Assembly: GCA_030683005.1 (NCBI GenBank)
Contig: JAUXMY010000028.1
Span: forward strand, 1 to 64,000
Source of the DNA: Caulobacter sp.
GTDB lineage: Bacteria; Pseudomonadota; Alphaproteobacteria; Caulobacterales; Caulobacteraceae
DNA: 64,000 nt
Reading direction: 5' to 3'
Part shown: positions 55,300-64,000 of the stretch, in pieces
Layout of the letters: each line of letters opens with the position of its first letter
Position numbering within the stretch: the first letter of the stretch is position 1
The notes under the pieces: generated by a model
Database searches by the model: none
What the model saw: the letters and a program-made list of their open reading frames with translations, nothing else
Told to the model about the DNA's origin: nothing
Position numbers and translations under genes: made by a program

Positions 55300-55434
55300 T
55301 TACTTGGCGTCCTGAGCCGTCTCTTCGATGGCCTGGCCGGCCGCACCGACGTCCTTGCCCGCGCCCTCGATGGTGTTGCAGGCGGCGGCCAGAAGGCTGG
55401 TGGCCGCAATGGCCAGAACTACAAGCTTACGCAT
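55300..55434 (-). CDS. Entericidin-like small lipoprotein
   Basis: 44 residues: MRKLVVLAIAATSLLAAACN, a lipoprotein signal with lipobox LAAAC, then TIEGAGKDVGAAGQAIEETA. This is the typical form of entericidin A/B family lipoproteins, which are common stress-induced envelope proteins. An EcfG-type promoter lies upstream at 55483-55508. Confidence 0.88.
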   Translation of the reverse strand: MRKLVVLAIAATSLLAAACNTIEGAGKDVGAAGQAIEETAQDAK

Positions 55435-55482
55435 CGCGCATCTCCTCGGCCCGATCTCCGGGCGGTTGTTTCACGGCGGGTG

Positions 55483-55508
55483 AACGCGCCGGACTGCGCT
55501 CAGGTTCC
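55483..55508 (-). promoter_or_regulatory. EcfG/SigT-type promoter for the entericidin-like gene
   Basis: Minus strand GGAAC (55504-55508), 17-base spacer, CGTT (55483-55486). The predicted start of transcription is about 40 bp before the ATG at 55434. It overlaps the 3' end of the phyK gene. Confidence 0.8.
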
Positions 55509-57206
55509 GGTCGGCGCGGCTTCCGGAGTCGGAAAGTTCAACCGTGCGGTCAGCCCGCCCTCGGGGTTGCGCTCGAGGGTGCACCGGCCACGGAGTTGTC
55601 GGGCATAGGCGTTCATCAAGGTTCGGCCCACGCCCTTGATGTCCTCCGGATCCGGGGCGGCGTTCCGTCCGCCGCCGTCGTCGGCGATGGCCAGTTCGGC
55701 CTCGGGCCCGCGGACGGTGAACTCGACAGTCAGTCTGCCACCGGCCTCTGTCAGCGCGTGCTTCTGGGCGTTGGTCACCGCCTCGACGGCGAACAGGGCC
55801 AGCGGCGCCAGCTTGTCGGGATCGATGACCAGCCGGTCGGCCCGGACTTCGGTGCGCACGCTGCCGTGAGCCGACATGTCTCCGGCCAGAAGCTGGCCGG
55901 TCAACTCTTCCAGGAACGGTCGCAAGTCGACATGCTTGATGTCGGGACCCTGGTAGAGCGCGCGGTAGATCAGCGCCAGGGCCGTGATGCGCTGGCGGGT
56001 GTCGCTCATCGCCTGGCGGGCGGCCCGGTCGGTCAGCGCCCGCTCCTGCATGCTGAGCAAAGAGCTTACGACCTGCAGGTTGTTCTTCACCCTGTGATGG
56101 ATCTCGCGCATCAGCGCGTCCTTCTGGGCCAGGTTGTCGTGCAGCGCGGCGTCGCGGGCGACGATGGTGGCGGCCATGTGGTCGAGAGTCTCGGCCAGTT
56201 CCCGGATTTCCGGCGGCGCCTGCTCTACATGGAGAGGCCGAACCGTGAACCGTCCCCGGGCGTAGATGGCCGCCACCCGTTGCAGATAGACGATCCAGCG
56301 CCCGACACCCCGCTCCGCCGCGAAGAACACCGCCAGCAATGCGACCGCAAAGCCGATCAGCGGAAACACGATGCCCGACATGGGATCGAGCCAGGCGGTG
56401 GCGAACAGCCCCCGCGACGGGGCCGACAGGATGACAAAAAGGTCGTCCTCCACCAGCGGCGCTATCGAATAGGCGCGCCTGACGCCGTCGTCGTCGGTGG
56501 CGTAGGTGAGGACGGAGCTCCGCGTCGCGGCGCGATTGATCCAGCTGCTGACATCGTCGGGGAAGGCGGCCGGATCGGTGACCGACAAGGTTTCGCCCCG
56601 ATGGTCAACGATCGCCACCTGCGATTCGCGCGGCAGCGACCGGTCAGTCAGTTCCGGGCGAAGGCTGGACAGGGGAATGACGGCCGCCAGGACGCTGAAT
56701 CCGCCCTGCGGGTCCACCGACCGCACGGCGGCGAACAGGGCCGGCTCGTCGGCGTAGCTGGCTCCGGGGGTCAAGGTGACGAACTGCTTCTGCCCGGCCG
56801 CCAGGGCGCGGAACCAGTCGCGGTCGCGGCGCTCGGAGTCAGGCGGAACATCGTCCGCGGCGCAGGCCACGCGCCCGATCCGGTCGAAGCGGATGAGGTT
56901 GTCGTAGCCGCCCAGCCGTTGACGGATCTCGGCCAGACGATTGGAGCAGTCCATGCCGATCGCCCCGGGACCGAGCGTCTCGAGAAGGACGCTGGCCGCC
57001 TCGATCCGCGCCCTTGCCGTGGCGGCGCTGCGCGCGCCGGCAGACTCCAGCACGGCCTGCCTTTCGGCCGCCTGTCGTTGATAGGCCAGCATCGACTGGC
57101 CTCCGCCCAGCAGCAGCACCGGCGCCAGGGCCAGGGCAAGGGCCACGCCAAGCCGCACCCGGATGGTGGTGTCGGGACCCCAGTGCAGCCCGCGCAGGAG
57201 CCTCAC
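55500..57206 (-). CDS. phyK: Sensor histidine kinase of the general stress response (PhyK-like)
   Basis: About 568 residues from GTG 57206, which overlaps the sigT stop as GTGA. A first membrane helix, a periplasmic sensor of about 230 residues, a second helix near residue 290, then HAMP-like region and a HisKA_2/HWE kinase domain with REIHHRVKNNLQVVSSLLSM (phospho-His) and AIADDGGGRN. Phosphorylates PhyR. Position directly after nepR-sigT supports the assignment. Confidence 0.88.
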   Translation of the reverse strand: MRLLRGLHWGPDTTIRVRLGVALALALAPVLLLGGGQSMLAYQRQAAERQAVLESAGARSAATARARIEAASVLLETLGPGAIGMDCSNRLAEIRQRLGGYDNLIRFDRIGRVACAADDVPPDSERRDRDWFRALAAGQKQFVTLTPGASYADEPALFAAVRSVDPQGGFSVLAAVIPLSSLRPELTDRSLPRESQVAIVDHRGETLSVTDPAAFPDDVSSWINRAATRSSVLTYATDDDGVRRAYSIAPLVEDDLFVILSAPSRGLFATAWLDPMSGIVFPLIGFAVALLAVFFAAERGVGRWIVYLQRVAAIYARGRFTVRPLHVEQAPPEIRELAETLDHMAATIVARDAALHDNLAQKDALMREIHHRVKNNLQVVSSLLSMQERALTDRAARQAMSDTRQRITALALIYRALYQGPDIKHVDLRPFLEELTGQLLAGDMSAHGSVRTEVRADRLVIDPDKLAPLALFAVEAVTNAQKHALTEAGGRLTVEFTVRGPEAELAIADDGGGRNAAPDPEDIKGVGRTLMNAYARQLRGRCTLERNPEGGLTARLNFPTPEAAPTGT

Positions 57207-57814
57207 CGGGCGGCGCTCAGACGCTCCGCATCGGCCAGGATCGAACGCATGGCGTCTCCGGCTGAGCCGCCGTCGCGATCGTAGTCGCCGGCCTCGAGGA
57301 TGCCATGCAGGGCCTTGCGAGCCCGGCTTACCCGGCTCTTCACCGTTCCGACGGCGCATCCGCAGATGTCGGCCGCCTCTTCGTAGGCAAAGCCGCCGGC
57401 GCCGACCAGGATCAACGCTTCCCGCTGCTCGTCCGGAAGCATGGCCATGGCCAGCCGCAGCTCGTCCAGCGCCACCGGCGCTTCGGGATCATCGACAGCC
57501 ACCAGGGTGCGCTCGGCGGCTTCCTGGTCGAGCTGGATCTGGCGCCAGGAGCGACGCTTGTCCGAATAGAACTGGTTGCGAAGAATCATGAAGGTCCAGG
57601 CCTTCATGTTGGTGCCCAGCTGGAAGCTCTTGCGTGCGTCCCAGGCCTTGATCATTGCATCCTGCGCCAGGTCGTCCGCCTGGGTGGCGTCGCCGGTCAG
57701 CGTGCGGGCGAAAGCCCGCAGGTGGGGAATCAGCTTCACCAGCTCACGCTGGAAGATCGCGTCACGCTCACGGTCGGTCATGGCCGCGTGGCGCTCGTCC
57801 TGAACGGCTGCCAT
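57203..57814 (-). CDS. sigT: ECF sigma factor EcfG/SigT (general stress response)
   Basis: 203 residues. ECF sigma with region 2 (DDLAQDAMIKAWDARKSF) and region 4 (LPDEQREALILVGAGGFAYE, then CAVGTVKSRVSRARKAL). The EcfG class is indicated by its place between NepR and PhyK and by the EcfG-type promoters around it. ATG 57814 follows the nepR stop directly (TAGATG), so the two are translationally coupled. Confidence 0.93.
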   Translation of the reverse strand: MAAVQDERHAAMTDRERDAIFQRELVKLIPHLRAFARTLTGDATQADDLAQDAMIKAWDARKSFQLGTNMKAWTFMILRNQFYSDKRRSWRQIQLDQEAAERTLVAVDDPEAPVALDELRLAMAMLPDEQREALILVGAGGFAYEEAADICGCAVGTVKSRVSRARKALHGILEAGDYDRDGGSAGDAMRSILADAERLSAAR

Positions 57815-58003
57815 CTAGCGGTCTCCGGTTTTGTCGTCGGCCTTGCGCAGGATGTCCAGGAACTCGTCCGGGACAGGTTCATTGACGACCTCGTCGAACA
57901 TCTGCCGCAGCTTCACGCCGATGGCGCGCTGCCGAAGCCGGGTTTCATCCAACGGGGCGGAGCCCTTGCGACGTTCGTCCATGGGATTTTGTTCGATCAT
58001 CAT
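57815..58003 (-). CDS. nepR: Anti-sigma factor NepR
   Basis: 62 residues. Binds SigT until phosphorylated PhyR takes it away. The core helix pair reads IGVKLRQMFDEVVNEPVPDE and FLDILRKADD, the family signature. Starts at the tandem ATGATG at 58001-58003. The open frame extends upstream, but that part covers the promoter. Confidence 0.93.
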   Translation of the reverse strand: MMIEQNPMDERRKGSAPLDETRLRQRAIGVKLRQMFDEVVNEPVPDEFLDILRKADDKTGDR

Positions 58004-58055
58004 ATCGGCGCGGGCACGCGCCTGCCCCCTGTTTTGACGTGTACTTCGCTCGCTC

Positions 58056-58081
58056 AACGCCGCACCTGTCCGCCGGGTTCC
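58056..58081 (-). promoter_or_regulatory. EcfG/SigT-type promoter for nepR-sigT-phyK
   Basis: Minus strand GGAAC (58077-58081), 17-base spacer, CGTT (58056-58059), about 50 bp before nepR. Indicates positive autoregulation. Confidence 0.85.
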
Positions 58082-58122
58082 CATACCTTCGTTCTTTATG
58101 ATGACGTAGTGTTCGCGCTGTG

Positions 58123-58147
58123 GGAACCTTCCTCTGTCGAAGGCGTT
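58123..58147 (+). promoter_or_regulatory. EcfG/SigT-type promoter for phyR
   Basis: GGAAC (58123-58127), 16-base spacer, CGTT (58144-58147), 80 bp upstream of the phyR ATG. Confidence 0.87.
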
Positions 58148-58226
58148 CGGGAGATGAAGGGGTGCGCATCGCCTGCGAGGGTGGTTTTTGTCACGCCATA
58201 ACGAAGACCTAGAAACGGGAGGGGTC

Positions 58227-59024
58227 ATGAGTCTTCTTGCACGTCTTGCACCGCATTTGCCCTACATGCGTCGGTACGCTCGCGCCCTCACGGGCGACCA
58301 GGTCTCCGGCGACCAGTATGTGCGAGTCGCGCTGGAAGCCCTTGCCGCCGGCGACAAGCAACTCGACAGTCGCTTCTCGCCGAGGGTCGCGCTCTATCAT
58401 GTGTTCCACGCCATCTGGTGCAGCTCAGGCGCCAGGCTGGAAGACCGCGCCGATGAGCAGCACACTGGTCCCGATCCAAGCCAGCGCCTGCTGAGAATCG
58501 CTCCGCGGTCCCGCCAGGCCTTCCTCCTGACCGCCCTGGAAGGCTTCACGCCGACCGAAGCGGCCCAGATCCTGGACACCGACTTTCCCGATGTTGAACG
58601 GCTGATCGCCGAAGCCCAGAACGAGATCGACGCCGAACTGGCGACGGACGTGCTGATCATCGAGGACGAGCCGGTCATCGCCGCCGATATCGAGGCGCTG
58701 GTCCGCGAGCTGGGCCACACCGTCGTCGATATCGCGGCCACACGCACCGAGGCCGTGGCGGCGGTCGCCAACAAGATGCCGGGCCTTGTGCTGGCCGACA
58801 TCCAGCTGGCCGACGGGTCCTCGGGCATCGACGCGGTTAAGGATATTCTCGGTCGCTACGACGTGCCGGTGATCTTCATCACCGCCTTCCCCGAGCGCCT
58901 GCTGACCGGCGAGCGGCCGGAGCCCACCTTCCTGATCACCAAGCCCTTCCAGCCGGAAACGGTAAAGGCGGCGATCGGTCAGGCGCTTTTCTTCCACCCC
59001 GGCCGGACGCGGAAGGCGGCTTAA
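58227..59024 (+). CDS. phyR: General stress response regulator PhyR
   Basis: 265 residues from ATG 58227 behind GGGAGGGG. The N-terminal half is a sigma-like domain (LPYMRRYARALTGDQVSG through FTPTEAAQILDTDFPDVERL) that mimics SigT for NepR. The C-terminal receiver has DVLIIEDEPVIAADI (acid pair), LVLADIQLADGSSG (phospho-Asp) and FLITKPFQP (Lys). On phosphorylation it sequesters NepR. Divergent from nepR. Confidence 0.96.
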   Translation: MSLLARLAPHLPYMRRYARALTGDQVSGDQYVRVALEALAAGDKQLDSRFSPRVALYHVFHAIWCSSGARLEDRADEQHTGPDPSQRLLRIAPRSRQAFLLTALEGFTPTEAAQILDTDFPDVERLIAEAQNEIDAELATDVLIIEDEPVIAADIEALVRELGHTVVDIAATRTEAVAAVANKMPGLVLADIQLADGSSGIDAVKDILGRYDVPVIFITAFPERLLTGERPEPTFLITKPFQPETVKAAIGQALFFHPGRTRKAA

Positions 59025-59042
59025 CCGCCCTCCGCTGGTCGC

Positions 59043-59297
59043 CTATTGTTTGACGTCAGTAACCGGCCCCGTCGTGGCGCGAGCCTCGGCGGCGGTTGGC
59101 GTACTGGCTTCATTGGCGGCGGTGAAAGCGCCGGAATAGAAGGCCCAGGCCGTGAACAGCGCGATGACGGCCAGCGTCGTTGAGGCGATCAGCATCAAGA
59201 ACGCGTGGCGGCCCCAACGCCCCTGGCGCGCGTCTGTCGCCTCCAGCACATCGTGACCGGTCTCCGCCGGTCGCGTTCGGTTGAAAATTGTGGCCAT
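59043..59297 (-). CDS. Small membrane protein, probable SigT target
   Basis: 84 residues, one membrane helix (AFLMLIASTTLAVIALFTAW), short basic N-terminus and a Thr/Ala-rich tail. No known family. Placed 18 bp from the phyR stop, convergent. EcfG-type promoter at 59332-59356. Confidence 0.75.
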   Translation of the reverse strand: MATIFNRTRPAETGHDVLEATDARQGRWGRHAFLMLIASTTLAVIALFTAWAFYSGAFTAANEASTPTAAEARATTGPVTDVKQ

Positions 59298-59331
59298 GGA
59301 CGCCTCCTGCTTGGGTAACTCTCAGCAGAAG

Positions 59332-59356
59332 AACGTCCCGGCGCACGCGCTGTTCC
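59332..59356 (-). promoter_or_regulatory. EcfG/SigT-type promoter for the small membrane protein
   Basis: Minus strand GGAAC (59352-59356), 16-base spacer, CGTT (59332-59335); predicted leader of about 28 nt before ATG 59297. Confidence 0.85.
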
Positions 59357-59566
59357 TTTCCCGGCAAGGTCCGCGTGAAACCAGTAAAAAATATCGTCGG
59401 TTGCGGGAACAGATCGCGCAGGGACCGCGTTTACAATTTGCGGAGGCGGCGACGCCCCCCCCGACTTGAGGCTGGCAATAGTCAGCCTGCCGCCTCCGCA
59501 CCCCCTTCTCGATGATGCCGAACTTCGAGGGTGGCCCGCAAGGGACCACCCTCTCTTCTCGCGCCT

Positions 59567-60004
59567 CTACTGGCTTGAGCTCTTGAACACGACGTCGGCG
59601 CGACGGCGAAGCGGGCGCGCCTCCCCGGAAGCGGTTTCGGCGCCGGAAGCGCCGGCCGCGGCGATACGCACATTGCCGAACCCGAACCCGCCAAGCGCCT
59701 GGGTCACCGCCTTGGCGCGCTGTTCGGACAGGAGGAGGTTGGCTCCGGGGTCGCCGACCGCATCGGCGAGACCCAGGACCTCGACCACGCCGAGGGCGCA
59801 GGTCGTGCGCATCTCCCTGGCCTCCGCCAGCACCTGTCGGGCGTCACGCGTGATCCGCGCCGAGCCGTCGTCGAAGTAGATCGAGACCTTCAGATCCTCA
59901 CACAGGTTCGTCGGAGCTACCCGGGACCGGGTGGCGCAGCCCCCGATGACCAGGGTCGATACCACCGCTGCGGCCACCAGCCCGTGTTTCCACATAGCGC
60001 TCAT
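59567..60004 (-). CDS. OmpA-family lipoprotein
   Basis: 145 residues. Signal with lipobox VIGGC; the OmpA C-terminal domain follows: VSIYFDDGSARITRDARQVL, VEVLGLADAVGDPGANLLLS and EQRAKAVTQAL. Such proteins anchor the outer membrane to peptidoglycan. The usual D/R pair of the peptidoglycan site is partly kept (Asp in GLADAVGD, Arg in LSEQRA). No EcfG promoter was found just upstream. Confidence 0.85.
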   Translation of the reverse strand: MSAMWKHGLVAAAVVSTLVIGGCATRSRVAPTNLCEDLKVSIYFDDGSARITRDARQVLAEAREMRTTCALGVVEVLGLADAVGDPGANLLLSEQRAKAVTQALGGFGFGNVRIAAAGASGAETASGEARPLRRRADVVFKSSSQ

Positions 60005-60019
60005 CCTGACTCACCCATG

Positions 60020-60050
60020 AAAAAGAACGGCCGGCGAAACCGCCGACCGT
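60020..60050 (-). terminator. Rho-independent terminator after the glycine-zipper gene
   Basis: Minus strand ACGGTCGGCG, loop GTTT, CGCCGGCCGT, followed by TCTTTTTC. 38 bp after the stop of the gene at 60088. Confidence 0.85.
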
Positions 60051-60087
60051 CCTGATGGTCGCTGAAAAACAGTGATCCGTCGATCCG

Positions 60088-60438
60088 TTACCGGGGACGA
60101 CCGTCTTCCCAGAAGTACCGGCCGCTCGCCTGATCGTAGTAATAGTAGCGACCCGCCCGCTCGTCATAGTACTGGCGGCGGTCCGGAGTGGCGCCACAGC
60201 CGCCGTCCTCGCGGCACCCCTTGACCGCTCCGGCGGTGCCGCCGATGGCGGCGCCGATCGCGGCGCCGGTTCCGGCGTCTCCGCTGCCCACGTTGTTGCC
60301 GATCACCGCGCCGGCGATCGCGCCCAGAGCGGCGCCGCCGGCGGCGTTGCGTTCCACGTTGCCCGTCGTCGTGCAGGCGCTGGTCAGCATGCCTGCGGCG
60401 GCGATCGCCAGGGCGGTTCTCATCATTGTCTTGTTCAT
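60088..60438 (-). CDS. Glycine-zipper lipoprotein
   Basis: 116 residues from ATG 60438 with GGAGAGG upstream. Signal and lipobox (LTSAC), then a glycine-zipper (GGAALGAIAGAVIGNNVGSG, GAAIGAAIGGTAGAVKG) and a Tyr-rich tail (RRQYYDERAGRYYYYDQ). Resembles the YMGG/17-kDa surface antigen type lipoproteins linked to envelope stress. EcfG promoter upstream. Confidence 0.88.
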   Translation of the reverse strand: MNKTMMRTALAIAAAGMLTSACTTTGNVERNAAGGAALGAIAGAVIGNNVGSGDAGTGAAIGAAIGGTAGAVKGCREDGGCGATPDRRQYYDERAGRYYYYDQASGRYFWEDGRPR

Positions 60439-60479
60439 ATGCCTCTCCAGGGTTTGGTTCGGCCCCCGTCGGCATTGGC

Positions 60480-60504
60480 AACGCGGCGCGCCCCCGGGAG
60501 TTCC
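60480..60504 (-). promoter_or_regulatory. EcfG/SigT-type promoter for the glycine-zipper gene
   Basis: Minus strand GGAAC (60500-60504), 16-base spacer, CGTT (60480-60483), leader about 35 nt. Confidence 0.86.
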
Positions 60505-60509
60505 GGTCA

Positions 60510-60535
60510 GGAACCTCTGCCCCCCGGTTCCCGTT
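60510..60535 (+). promoter_or_regulatory. EcfG/SigT-type promoter for the diacylglycerol-kinase-like gene
   Basis: GGAAC (60510-60514), 17-base spacer, CGTT (60532-60535). It is back to back with the minus-strand promoter; only 5 bp separate the two -35 elements. Confidence 0.85.
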
Positions 60536-60570
60536 AGCGTGTGGCATTGAGGTCGGGTGAGGCATTGAAC

Positions 60571-61467
60571 GTGGGCAACGGACCAGGCACCGTCGTGATC
60601 AGGCGCGTCGAGGTGGTGGTGAACCCCCTGTCGGGCAGCGCCGGTCCCGACGCCGTGGCCGAGGCCGAGCGCATTCTGGCAGAAGCCGGCGTGTCGGGCT
60701 CGGTCCGGGTTCCGGGCGACGAAGGGCTGGAGGCCTGTCTGCAAGAGGCTCTGGACGCAAGACCCGACCTGCTGGCGATCGTGGCCGGCGACGGCACGGC
60801 GCGCGCAGGCGCCGAGCTGGCCGGACCTGACGGGCCGCTGGTCGCGCCTCTGCCCGGCGGCACGATGAACATGCTGCCCGGCGCCCTCTATGGCGATCGT
60901 GACTGGAAGACCGCCCTGGCCGACATCCTGGCCGACGGCATCGTCAAGCCGGTGTCGGGTGGCGAGATCGAAGGGCATCGCTTCTACGTGGCGGCCATCC
61001 TGGGCTCGCCGGCCCTTTGGGCGAGGGCGCGCGAATCCGTACGCCAGGGAAAGCTGCGGCTGGCGATCCTGCGCGCCCGCCGCGCCTTGAACAACGCCTT
61101 CTCCGGCCGATTGCGCTTCTCCCTTGATGGCGGCCCGAGACGGAAGACGGGCGCGCTCGTTCTGATGACGCCGCTCGTATCGAAGGCTCTGGACGAGTTC
61201 GACGGCTGCCTGGAGGCGGCCGCGCTGGACCCCGCGAACGCGCTTGAGGTGTTCCGGCTGGGATTCCATGCCGCGCAGGGTGACTGGAGGGCCGACCCGG
61301 CCGTGGACGCCGGCCGGTGTCGGCGTGGCCGGGCCTGGGCGGCGGGACGGATACCGGCCGTTCTGGATGGCGAGCCAACGCGGCTCAGCGCGGGGTCCGA
61401 GTTCCGCTTTCTGCCGACCGCGTTTCGGGCGCTTGTTCCCCGGCCAGCGACGGAGCCGGAGATATGA
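60571..61467 (+). CDS. Diacylglycerol/lipid kinase-like protein
   Basis: 298 residues from GTG 60571 (GTGAGG 8 bp upstream; the frame reaches 60541 but the promoter ends at 60535). DAGK catalytic fold: EVVVNPLSGSAG, LLAIVAGDGTARAGAEL and APLPGGTMNMLPGAL. The usual GGDGT-x-x-E/N and GTAND motifs are altered (AGDGTARAG, GGTMNM), so activity may differ. Overlaps the phosphoesterase by 4 bp (ATGA). Confidence 0.82.
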   Translation: MGNGPGTVVIRRVEVVVNPLSGSAGPDAVAEAERILAEAGVSGSVRVPGDEGLEACLQEALDARPDLLAIVAGDGTARAGAELAGPDGPLVAPLPGGTMNMLPGALYGDRDWKTALADILADGIVKPVSGGEIEGHRFYVAAILGSPALWARARESVRQGKLRLAILRARRALNNAFSGRLRFSLDGGPRRKTGALVLMTPLVSKALDEFDGCLEAAALDPANALEVFRLGFHAAQGDWRADPAVDAGRCRRGRAWAAGRIPAVLDGEPTRLSAGSEFRFLPTAFRALVPRPATEPEI

Positions 61468-62276
61468 CCGTCCGTCGCTTTGCGCACCTCTCGGACATTC
61501 ACTTCGGCGGCGAGCACGTCGAGGCCGTGGCCGGCGTGAAGGCCTGGATCGCCGAGCATCGGCCCGACCTGACCATCATCACCGGAGACATCACCCGCGC
61601 CGGCGCACCGGCGGAGTTCGCGGCGGCGCGCAAGTGGGTCCACAGCCTCGCGTCGGAGTTCCTGATCGTGCCGGGCAACCACGACACGCCCTACTACAGT
61701 CTGCCGCACCGCCTGTTCCTGCCCTGGAAGCGCTACGAGACCTACTTCGGCGCCCTTCAGGCCGCGGCTGTGCAGCGGGCGGGCGTGGCCATCGCGCCGG
61801 TGAACACCGCCCGCGGCGCCCAGCTGCGGGCCAACTGGTCCAAGGGCGCCATCACCCGGGGTCAGGCCCAACGGGCCGTCCGGGCCCTGGACGCCGCCCG
61901 TGCCGGCTCCCTGAAGGTCATCGCCTGTCACCATCCCCTGATCGAGATGATCGGCGGGCCGATGAGCGGCAAGGTCCGGGGCGGACGGCAGGCGGCGGAG
62001 CTGTTCTCGCGCGGGGAGGTCGACCTGGTGTTGACCGGACACGTCCATGCGCCGTTCGCCCTGCCCTTGCCCGGCGGAGACGGTCACACCTGGGCCGTGG
62101 GCGCCAGCACGCTGTCCATCCGGGAGCGCGGGGTTCCCATCGGCTTCAACTGCATCGAGGTCGCCGATGACTGCGTGACCATCGCCGCGCTCGCCTGGGC
62201 CGGCTCCCGTTTTGAGCCGTGGCGAACCTGGCGGATAGACCGACGCCCCACCTTGGCCGAAGACGGCCCGGCATGA
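61464..62276 (+). CDS. Calcineurin-like metallophosphoesterase
   Basis: 270 residues. Five metallophosphatase motifs: AHLSDIHFGG, IITGDITRAG, VPGNHDTPYY, IACHHPLIEM and LTGHVHAPFALPL. Substrate could be a cyclic nucleotide or phospholipid-derived phosphate. Coupled to the lipid-kinase-like gene and so likely under the same SigT promoter. Confidence 0.9.
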   Translation: MTVRRFAHLSDIHFGGEHVEAVAGVKAWIAEHRPDLTIITGDITRAGAPAEFAAARKWVHSLASEFLIVPGNHDTPYYSLPHRLFLPWKRYETYFGALQAAAVQRAGVAIAPVNTARGAQLRANWSKGAITRGQAQRAVRALDAARAGSLKVIACHHPLIEMIGGPMSGKVRGGRQAAELFSRGEVDLVLTGHVHAPFALPLPGGDGHTWAVGASTLSIRERGVPIGFNCIEVADDCVTIAALAWAGSRFEPWRTWRIDRRPTLAEDGPA

Positions 62277-62302
62277 AAACGGCGGCGGGTCGCCCCGCCG
62301 CC
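62277..62302 (-). terminator. Rho-independent terminator after the DUF1328 gene
   Basis: Minus strand GGCGGCGGG, loop GCGA, CCCGCCGCC, followed by GTTTT. 28 bp after the DUF1328 stop; it may also stop the convergent phosphoesterase transcript. Confidence 0.75.
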
Positions 62303-62329
62303 GCTTCAACTCGGAGTTTTCGTGGCGCC

Positions 62330-62500
62330 TTAAGGCGACCGGCCTCGCACCAGATGCATGACGCCGGAGACGACAAACAGCACCAGGAAGACGAAAAACA
62401 GGATCTTGGCGATATCGACAGCCGTGCCGGCAAGTCCGCCAAAGCCCAGGAACGCGGCGATCAACGCCACGACCAGAAAAATCAGTGCCCACCTGAGCAT
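62330..62500 (-). CDS. DUF1328 small membrane protein
   Basis: 56 residues, two membrane helices ([39 protein letters not shown]). [19 protein letters not shown] is the start of the YtjA/DUF1328 family, frequent in stress regulons. EcfG promoter upstream. Confidence 0.93.
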
Positions 62501-62553
62501 TCGCGAATCTCCATCCATGCTTCGACCGGCCAAGGGCGGTCCGATGATCTGGA

Positions 62554-62578
62554 AACGCGCCTCCGCGACCTGCGTTCC
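62554..62578 (-). promoter_or_regulatory. EcfG/SigT-type promoter for the DUF1328 gene
   Basis: Minus strand GGAAC (62574-62578), 16-base spacer, CGTT (62554-62557). Lies immediately after the superoxide dismutase stop. Confidence 0.86.
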
Positions 62579-62579
62579 C

Positions 62580-63221
62580 TCAACGTCGGAGTGGCGCGGG
62601 ATAGGTCCAGACTTCGCCGTCGCCACGCGAGGCCGCCAGTTGCCGTGTGGCCAGCGACCAGTTCGCCAGCGTGTCGAACCAGGCTTCGAGGAAGCCCTTC
62701 CGGTCGTTCTGGTGGTCGAGATAGTAGGCGTGCTCCCACAGGTCGCAGACCAGCAGCGGCGTTACACCCTCGAGCGGCACCGTGTCATCGGCGTCATGGG
62801 TCGAGATGACCTTCAGCGCATCGCCCTCGACGATCAGCCAGACCCAGCCCGACGCGAAGTGTCCCACGCCTTCCGTCACAAAGGCCTCCCGCAGGGCGGC
62901 GATGTCGCCGAACGCGGCATCAATCGCCGTCGCCAGGTCCCCGGTCGGGGGCGAGGGATCCGGCGTCATGGAGTCCCAGAAGAAGGCATGGTTCCAAGCC
63001 TGGGCGGCGTTGTTGAACAGCTTGCGCCTGTCAGCGTCGCCGGCGGTCTCGCGAATGACAGCCTCAAGCGCGCCTGGCCAGTCGCCGGACTCCGCCAGAA
63101 GCCTGTTCAACGCATCGACGTAAGCCTGGTGATGCTTGCCGTGATGGAAGCCCAGCGTGCGGGCGCTAATCACCGGCGCGAGCGCGTCGGCGGGATAGGG
63201 CAGGTCGGGAAGAACGAACAT
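62580..63221 (-). CDS. sodB: Superoxide dismutase, Fe/Mn family
   Basis: Disproportionates superoxide. 213 residues from ATG 63221 with GGAG upstream. Metal ligands: His in [10 protein letters not shown], His in [13 protein letters not shown], Asp and His in [14 protein letters not shown]. No EcfG-type site was found just upstream. Fe or Mn use cannot be settled by eye. Confidence 0.95.
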
Positions 63222-63259
63222 GACTTCACTCCGGGGCGCCCGGGGAAGTCAGGCGCCCG

Positions 63260-63655
63260 TTATCGTTTCGGGGGGGACGGCTTGTCCATGAACGCGCGAA
63301 GCACTGCAGCGATCAGTTGCGGGTTGCGCAGGGCGTAGATTCCGGCGGCCACCGCCGCGCCTGAGGCCAGCAGCGGACGCTCGCGCACCAGGGACAGGAT
63401 GGTGTCGACAAGGGTGGCGTCCGGCGTCGCCGCCGTCGCATGCCGCCTGTCCCCGTCGACCTTGCGGGCGGCGATGAAGCCAGCCACGGCCACCAGGATC
63501 GCCGCGCTGGCGGAGACCACCGCCGCCGCGCCGGGCGCGCCCAGACGGGGCTCGACCAGCGCGTAGAGTGCAAAGAATGCGGAGACGACGCCGACGGCCG
63601 CGGCGGCGGCTATGGCGGCGGCCGCCGCGAGAGCCATCAACGTCCGTTCCATCAT
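63260..63655 (-). CDS. Small membrane protein (holin/DUF1469-like)
   Basis: 131 residues. Two long membrane helices (about 5-35 and 42-65), then a basic stretch and a C-terminal helix ending MDKPSPPKR. Similar to phage holin superfamily III proteins found beside DUF883 genes. The ATG overlaps the stop of the DUF883 gene (ATGA). Confidence 0.7.
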   Translation of the reverse strand: MMERTLMALAAAAAIAAAAAVGVVSAFFALYALVEPRLGAPGAAAVVSASAAILVAVAGFIAARKVDGDRRHATAATPDATLVDTILSLVRERPLLASGAAVAAGIYALRNPQLIAAVLRAFMDKPSPPKR

Positions 63656-64000
63656 CAGCGGCGATCGCCCCGGCCGGCCAGCAGCAGACCGATCAGCAGG
63701 CCGACGCCGATACCGGCGAGCGTGGCGGTGACCGGACGCTCCTTGACGCGATCAACCACATAGCGCTGCGCGACATCGAACTGTTCGCTGGCATTGTCAG
63801 TGTAGGCGCGGCTTTGGGCGCGGAGGGTTTCGATTCCCTCGCGGACGGCCGCTTCGGTGCGGTGAGCCGCCTCGGTCAGCTTTTCGCGCGCCTGATCGGC
63901 GGCGTCGACAAAACTGCGCTCGGCGTGTTTGGCGGCGTTCTTCAACGCGGCCTTGGCCTGTTCGGCCTCGCCGGCGGCGGGGTTGGTGACGTCGGTCGGG
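63655..64000 (-). CDS. DUF883 (ElaB/YqjD-like) protein, start beyond window
   Basis: C-terminal 114 residues. The frame remains open from the TTG at 63945 to the end of the window (about 18 more codons rich in Ala/Glu: PTDVTNPAAGEAEQAKAA), so the start lies outside. Long amphipathic helix and one C-terminal membrane helix (PVTATLAGIGVGLLIGLLLA), with the typical end GRGDRR. Family members bind ribosomes or anchor at the inner membrane in stationary phase. Confidence 0.85.
   Translation of the reverse strand, partial: PTDVTNPAAGEAEQAKAALKNAAKHAERSFVDAADQAREKLTEAAHRTEAAVREGIETLRAQSRAYTDNASEQFDVAQRYVVDRVKERPVTATLAGIGVGLLIGLLLAGRGDRR

Follow-up and report, generated by a model that had tools for sequence, protein, structure and literature searches.

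A Predicted General-Stress-Response Island of the Caulobacteraceae with Nine Putative SigT Promoters

Results

Gene Content of the Island

We analyzed a 64,000-nucleotide stretch of a Caulobacter genome (contig JAUXMY010000028.1; hereafter the window, G000:C1:1-64000 in our numbering) that carries, toward its right end, the genes for the EcfG-type sigma factor SigT, the anti-sigma factor NepR, and the response regulator PhyR. The genome comprises 43 contigs and 3,447,400 bases and is 98% complete. In this family of regulators, PhyR that has been phosphorylated sequesters NepR, whereupon SigT is freed. Around these genes lie nine exact matches to the EcfG-type promoter motif GGAAC-N16/17-CGTT, which we read, with a probability of about 0.88, as nine SigT promoters of a general-stress-response (GSR) island of the Caulobacteraceae that is mostly inherited in place. 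The island contains the following features, with lengths of proteins in amino acids (aa).

55300..55434, minus strand: entericidin-like small lipoprotein, 44 aa (Pfam PF08085, 28.5 bits), same position as C. crescentus CC_3473
55483..55508, minus strand: predicted EcfG-type promoter of the entericidin gene, exact motif, 48 bp before the ATG
55500..57206, minus strand: phyK, sensor histidine kinase (NCBIfam PhyK, 750 bits, cut-off 750), without an EcfG motif of its own
57203..57814, minus strand: sigT/ecfG, extracytoplasmic function (ECF) sigma factor (Pfam Sigma70_r2 and Sigma70_r4_2; best PDB match 5uxx), directly after nepR
57815..58003, minus strand: nepR, anti-sigma factor (Pfam PF18557, 59.2 bits; NCBIfam antisigmaTNepR, 119 bits, cut-off 100)
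58056..58081, minus strand: predicted EcfG-type promoter of nepR-sigT, exact motif
58123..58147, plus strand: predicted EcfG-type promoter of phyR, exact motif
58227..59024, plus strand: phyR, response regulator with a sigma-like domain, anti-anti-sigma factor (PhyR_sigma2, PhyR_sigma-like, Response_reg; NCBIfam PhyR, 370 bits, cut-off 240)
59043..59297, minus strand: 84-aa protein (TM84) with one apparent transmembrane segment by eye, divergent partner of gsrN
59332..59356, minus strand: predicted EcfG-type promoter of TM84, exact motif, 34 bp upstream of the ATG
59406..59431, plus strand: predicted EcfG-type promoter of the gsrN-type small RNA, exact motif, its end 10 bp upstream of the Rfam match
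59442..59551, plus strand: GsrN-type small RNA (Rfam RF01529, CC3552; 94.3 bits, gathering score 50)
59567..60004, minus strand: OmpA-family lipoprotein (PF00691), without an EcfG promoter of its own
60088..60438, minus strand: YMGG glycine-zipper lipoprotein (PF13441)
60480..60504, minus strand: predicted EcfG-type promoter of the YMGG lipoprotein, exact motif, its -35 box 5 bp from that of the next promoter
60510..60535, plus strand: predicted EcfG-type promoter of the DAGK-phosphoesterase unit, exact motif, back to back with the YMGG promoter
60571..61467, plus strand: diacylglycerol/lipid-kinase-domain protein (DAGK; PF00781), GTG start
61464..62276, plus strand: calcineurin-like metallophosphoesterase (MPE; PF00149), overlapping the kinase gene
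62330..62500, minus strand: DUF1328 small membrane protein (PF07043)
62554..62578, minus strand: predicted EcfG-type promoter of DUF1328, exact motif
62580..63221, minus strand: sodB, Fe/Mn superoxide dismutase (SOD; PF02777, PF00081), separated by a 38-bp gap from the preceding gene, M131
63260..63655, minus strand: M131, 131-aa membrane protein, overlapping the DUF883 stop
63655..64000, minus strand, the gene extending beyond the window by about 20 bp: DUF883-like protein (PF19029, weak at 21.6 bits against a cut-off of 27), with a predicted promoter at G000:C1:64080-64104

Exact motifs precede both the nepR-sigT unit, in which nepR adjoins a gene with ECF sigma domains, and phyR, whose product carries sigma-like and receiver domains (Pfam, NCBIfam). 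The phyK gene is presumably read from the nepR promoter, and the OmpA gene is possibly transcribed by read-through from the YMGG promoter. Neither the 84-aa protein nor M131 matched a family in Pfam or NCBIfam profile searches. Two further hits were discarded: an Rfam Ms_AS-8 match at 59591-59660, which is below its gathering score and inside the OmpA gene, and NCBIfam anti-phage names on the phosphoesterase, which score far below cut-off.

The Promoter Cluster Is Far Denser Than Expected by Chance

An exact-pattern scan found eight matches in the window, spanning 55483-62578, and a ninth on the minus strand 80 bp past the window end, upstream of DUF883-M131-sodB. Seven of the in-window sites precede protein-coding units (entericidin, nepR-sigT(-phyK), phyR, the 84-aa membrane protein, the glycine-zipper lipoprotein, DAGK-phosphoesterase, and DUF1328), with distances from CGTT to the start codon of 34–79 bp (53 bp for DUF1328). 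A preliminary description of this DNA had counted seven EcfG-type promoters, a number that agrees with the protein-coding units but undercounts the total, and its listing of targets omitted the gsrN-type small RNA (sRNA) behind the site at 59406-59431 on the plus strand. Its division into both core operons and five envelope-related targets matches the two core and five other units; the sRNA and the DUF883-sodB unit, however, make the cluster larger and not purely envelope-related. That the targets are mostly small lipoproteins and membrane proteins is borne out by the gene families of the protein units.

Across the whole genome the exact pattern occurs 50 times, against 30 occurrences of the reversed pattern used as a control. 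Nine of the 50 fall within 8.6 kb (55483-64104), the other 41 lying outside the island, and the Poisson probability of nine in 8.6 kb is 1.8e-14, or ~7e-12 when corrected for ~400 windows. A looser pattern (N15-18) gave 10 matches in the 64-kb window where 1.63 are expected, and none of 100 shuffles reached 10. The physical clustering around sigT-nepR-phyR that had been proposed is therefore far beyond chance as well as conserved in relatives (see below), and the genome-wide motif scan suggested along with it places the cluster well above random frequency.

The Sites Are Conserved across the Caulobacteraceae

For comparison we assembled 80 loci around phyR, 60 Caulobacteraceae loci around nepR, and the locus itself, 141 in all; eleven pairs are duplicates of the same genome, and gene counts are given for the 130 distinct loci. 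In the phyR set, 518 sites (a count that keeps matches antisense to nepR) lie in the 795 kb within -3.5 to +7.5 kb of phyR, compared with 6 in the 633 kb outside, while the reversed pattern yielded 8 inside and 8 outside. In both locus sets the site profile ends sharply, near -3 kb on one side and near +8 kb on the other. Exact motifs were found upstream of nepR in 122/130 distinct loci, phyR in 127/130, entericidin in 114/123, DUF1328 in 59/60, DUF883 in 63/73, YMGG in 56/66, and TM84 in 61/72. The genes expected to be internal to operons have no motif of their own (phyK 0/129, MPE 0/74, SOD 0/51, and M131 0/73), and none precedes the flanking P450 (0/17), cheR (0/43), or FMN-binding (0/9) genes. 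With OmpA preceded by a motif in 4/75 loci, we ruled out phyK, MPE, SOD, M131, and OmpA as separate SigT targets. Because sodB lacks its own motif in every one of its 51 distinct loci, it is probably read, as the last gene of the DUF883 unit, from the DUF883 promoter.

Among named PhyR proteins the nearest, with 97% identity, is that of a Caulobacter metagenome-assembled genome. Four relatives (L131-L134) permit a comparison site by site. Their PhyR proteins are 97, 90, 90, and 90% identical to that encoded here, and in each relative all nine sites are matched on the same strand and within 250 bp of the same position. At the 8, 6, 6, and 5 sites with equal spacing, ungapped spacer identity is 110/131, 44/99, 34/98, and 30/82, respectively, falling to 35–44% in three of the four. 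Since the boxes stay fixed while the spacers change, this comparison provides strong evidence that all nine sites are used.

These data also bear on the possibility that just the core sites (those of nepR, phyR, entericidin, and gsrN) are real and that the other matches are due to chance or driven by codon usage. The motif is short, and whole-genome counts in relatives are often near the reversed control. In addition, an exact plus-strand motif antisense to nepR (for example at -344 in L072 and -319 in L091, relative to phyR) occurs 12 times in the 60 nepR-set loci and is probably codon-driven, reflecting the conserved NEPVPDEF codons, although it may be a second phyR promoter. The retention of 9/9 sites in four relatives despite changed spacers, the 6 matches in 633 kb outside the island, and the high frequencies before DUF1328, DUF883, and YMGG nevertheless make a core-only cluster very improbable.

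Several observations weigh against an island of nine used promoters shared by the whole family. In the nepR set, with nepR-antisense matches excluded, the median number of sites per locus is 8.5 in Caulobacter (20 loci) and 9 in Phenylobacterium (12 loci) but 4 in Brevundimonas-type genomes (14 loci) and 4 in other genera (14 loci), where the island is reduced; the full set is thus not universal. An exact motif precedes DAGK in just 41/74 distinct loci and gsrN in 53/106, most of the remaining gsrN promoters being one mismatch off. Within -5 to +9.5 kb of the distinct loci, 138/867 sites match none of the counted genes; 22 of these 138 are antisense to nepR codons, and many of the 60 that were inspected precede other small open reading frames (ORFs). 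The compared genomes are related, and their counts are not independent. Finally, whole-genome counts of the motif are no higher than those of the reversed control in many relatives, which makes the motif alone a poor genome-wide predictor, and for this reason we give no whole-genome estimate of what fraction of the regulon is clustered.

Outside the family, we examined the nepR loci of 20 of 27 genomes with a NepR match, leaving aside two members of the Caulobacteraceae, the present genome and G002, as well as the low-scoring G369, G413, G430, G434, and G446. These loci, 6-20 kb in length, contain 0-7 exact sites (median 2), 52 in all, of which 18 are found in the 1 kb upstream of nepR; the reversed control gives 5. 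Two loci (L215 and L228) have seven sites and may be extended clusters of their own. As several sites occur in some of these loci, clusters of smaller size are not confined to the Caulobacteraceae; counting by exact consensus may also understate lineages with altered motifs.

Elsewhere in the present genome, an exact EcfG-type motif lies 36 bp ahead of a gene whose translation reads as a LOV-domain-kinase-like protein, in keeping with what is expected for LovK (L023, G000:C24:7400-8600). DUF1328-like and small lipoprotein-like genes, recognized by eye, likewise have exact motifs just upstream (L010, L022).

Most Sites Form Divergent Pairs

Three divergent pairs account for six of the nine promoters; we compared these pairs across loci as slots defined by position. 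The -35 boxes are separated by a median of 41 bp in the nepR/phyR pair (123 distinct loci), 48 bp in the pair at the gsrN slot (+0.7-1.9 kb; 52 distinct loci), and 7 bp in the pair at +1.9-3.3 kb, where the distance is 20 bp or less in 49/59 distinct loci. In 33 of these 59 loci the last pair serves YMGG and DAGK, both with exact motifs, and 32 of the 33 have a distance of at most 20 bp; in the remaining loci a different small gene follows. At the 5 bp that separates the YMGG and DAGK -35 boxes here, simultaneous binding of two polymerases is probably excluded.

At the slot opposite gsrN, an exact divergent motif facing away from gsrN is present in 89/122 loci, followed in each case by a small ORF (the scan demanded 40-160 aa), and the encoded proteins take at least two forms that are dissimilar by eye. 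The slot therefore seems more constant than the gene in it.

The Island Encodes a GsrN-Type sRNA

The predicted fold of the sRNA has a minimum-free-energy z-score of -5.1, leaves a C-rich 5' loop single-stranded, and places a 3' hairpin at the end. Matching sRNAs were found in 122/147 loci searched; all 122 contain a run of at least 5 C in the first 30 nt, and 121 of the 122 have a promoter with 0-1 mismatch. Three features make it probable that family CC3552 is GsrN (ccna_R0081), namely its C-tract, a sequence complementary to one of the listed target sites, and a SigT-type promoter in common with gsrN. The available text of PMC5869019 mentions six tandem cytosines in GsrN and a requirement for sigT in gsrN expression in C. 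crescentus, and the loop CGCCCCCCGA of two genomes with split islands (L232, L234; see below) is the exact complement of the target site UCGGGGGGCG in its Table 1. The terms CC3552 and Rfam are absent from the main text of PMC5869019, which does not state that CC3552 and gsrN are identical.

The C-rich 5' loop, the 3' hairpin, the SigT-type promoter, and the core-GSR proximity reported for the family are common to the sRNA here and to what that text describes for C. crescentus GsrN. Unlike C. crescentus GsrN, the sRNA here has as its partner a divergently oriented gene behind a SigT-type promoter, and the known katG target is apparently missing. In three Brevundimonas-type genomes (G151, G159, G204) a further CC3552 match, below threshold, lies far away from the first and may represent a gsrN paralogue.

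Although the present genome encodes SOD and GsrN, it gave no match to KatG (PF00141) or a KatE-type catalase (PF00199) at 98% completeness. The lack of a PF00141 match speaks against katG as a GsrN target in this genome; activation of katG through pairing with its leader is one known function of GsrN and not a defining one. Other targets are possible, and RNAs besides katG are reported to be bound by GsrN (PMC5869019, available text). The katG/gsrN survey covered 47 genomes, hand-picked for one to three contigs and not random, and five more. Ten of these 52 genomes lack PF00141, and eight of the ten contain gsrN (G000, G101, G161, G185, G239, G278, G163, G011), while gsrN was not found in G127 or G042. 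The C-rich loop is intact in 6/6 sequences examined among the eight. Given the retention of GsrN with an intact loop in genomes without katG, its conserved role may extend beyond katG.

Natural Splits of the Island

Both gsrN and nepR were found in 44 of the 47 hand-picked genomes, within 5 kb of each other in 38 and far apart in six. Three of the six are Caulobacter genomes, with gsrN-nepR distances of 84 kb (G130), 86 kb (G096), and ~450 kb if the contig is circular (G221), and in all three the island is interrupted between phyR and the pair formed by the small transmembrane protein gene and gsrN. One half keeps the entericidin, nepR, and phyR promoters and has an extra one before a lipoprotein-like gene. 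The other half reads gsrN-OmpA-YMGG-DAGK-MPE-SOD-M131-DUF883 and carries 4, 5, and 5 exact promoters (L232, L234, and L236, respectively). The DAGK promoter of G130 is not exact; no match was found for TM84 or OmpA in G130, nor for DUF1328 in any of the three genomes. In two of them (L233, L235), a second exact EcfG-type motif stands in tandem before phyR.

The other three cases differ in what has moved. In G011 (L118, L239), from another genus, DUF883-M131-SOD-DUF1328 is inverted just behind phyR with an exact promoter for DUF1328 and none for DUF883, and gsrN lies 318 kb away with OmpA-, YMGG-, DAGK-, and MPE-like matches; no divergent motif accompanies the gsrN promoter, which deviates from the consensus at one position. 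The two Brevundimonas-type genomes show a relocation confined to gsrN and its partner slot, with both promoters exact in G252 and just that of the partner exact in G192.

Clustering could be functional, targets near sigT responding first or most strongly because SigT is made locally, so that distance matters; a sharp-edged cluster conserved across genera is what this would produce. The distant pieces largely keep their promoters, however, which argues against a need for sigT proximity: the three split Caulobacter islands retain 4, 5, and 5 exact promoters in the distant half, and among the other three distal gsrN loci one has both promoters exact, one its partner's only, and one neither. We consider a benefit of proximity unlikely. 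Clustering may instead be mainly historical, small stress genes having gathered beside divergent SigT promoters in a stable neighborhood with no advantage in proximity. Slots that keep a promoter while the gene changes, as opposite gsrN, and the persistence of split islands favor this history, whereas the strong synteny and the rarity of splits suggest selection for linkage and leave it a plausible but somewhat doubtful account.

The splits may also explain an exception in the literature. Homologues of gsrN in Caulobacter, Brevundimonas, and Phenylobacterium are typically near core GSR genes, the exception being C. crescentus, in which gsrN is distal (PMC5869019, available text). In that species nepR is CC_3476 and phyR CC_3477 (PMC3073932, available text), and sodB is CC3557 (PMC3751524, available text). 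This numbering, together with the Rfam name CC3552, fits a split between phyR and gsrN, and C. crescentus probably carries its distal gsrN on one half of a split island.

Discussion

Our comparisons place a known regulatory core within a larger, recurrent block of predicted SigT promoters. In the Alphaproteobacteria, according to the available text of PMC8103513, the nepR-ecfG operon is divergent from phyR and both are under GSR-dependent promoters. The locus here shares with the general PhyR-NepR-EcfG locus, exemplified by the C. crescentus SigT locus, its genes and the nepR-ecfG/phyR divergence; it differs in the size of its EcfG-type block, which comprises nine promoters. In C. crescentus the kinase gene CC_3474 lies beside sigT, and the carbon-starvation SigT regulon includes phyR (CC_3477) and the entericidin gene CC_3473, listed as SigT-dependent in Table 1 of PMC3073932; the other island members were not found in the regulon table in the available part of that paper. 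Core autoregulation (PMC8103513), SigT control of entericidin and phyR (PMC3073932), and the proximity of gsrN to core genes (PMC5869019) were thus already known, as far as the available texts go. We found no description of the extended SigT promoter island in the literature searched, which did not extend to subscription papers, so that parts may be in print; nor did that literature yield island splits, the tight back-to-back promoter pair, or a GsrN without katG.

The motif and the published C. crescentus orthologues (phyR, entericidin CC_3473, and gsrN) suggest that the island's promoters depend on SigT. If so, sequestration of NepR by phosphorylated PhyR would free SigT, and SigT-RNA polymerase would fire nine promoters within ~8.6 kb. 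Two of these would re-supply the regulators, giving positive feedback, and one would produce GsrN, adding a post-transcriptional layer. The remaining six would lead to small envelope lipoproteins and membrane proteins, the pair of lipid-kinase-domain protein and phosphoesterase, and, as part of the DUF883 unit, superoxide dismutase, with envelope and oxidative protection as the presumed output.

Taken together, the results admit a broader and more tentative reading, to which we give a little less than even odds: a modular island of conserved SigT slots with swappable small envelope genes, in which the back-to-back pair would force a choice by the polymerase, GsrN would have a role beyond katG, and the distal gsrN of C. 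crescentus would be a split half.

Genes of unknown function in the island can now be listed as candidate direct targets of SigT, and the comparisons indicate that motif and conserved position together predict SigT targets far better than the motif alone. A split island would account in a simple way for the exceptional position of gsrN published for C. crescentus. The findings further open the questions of the function of GsrN in genomes without katG and of whether co-location with sigT matters, for which the naturally split islands may serve as a control.

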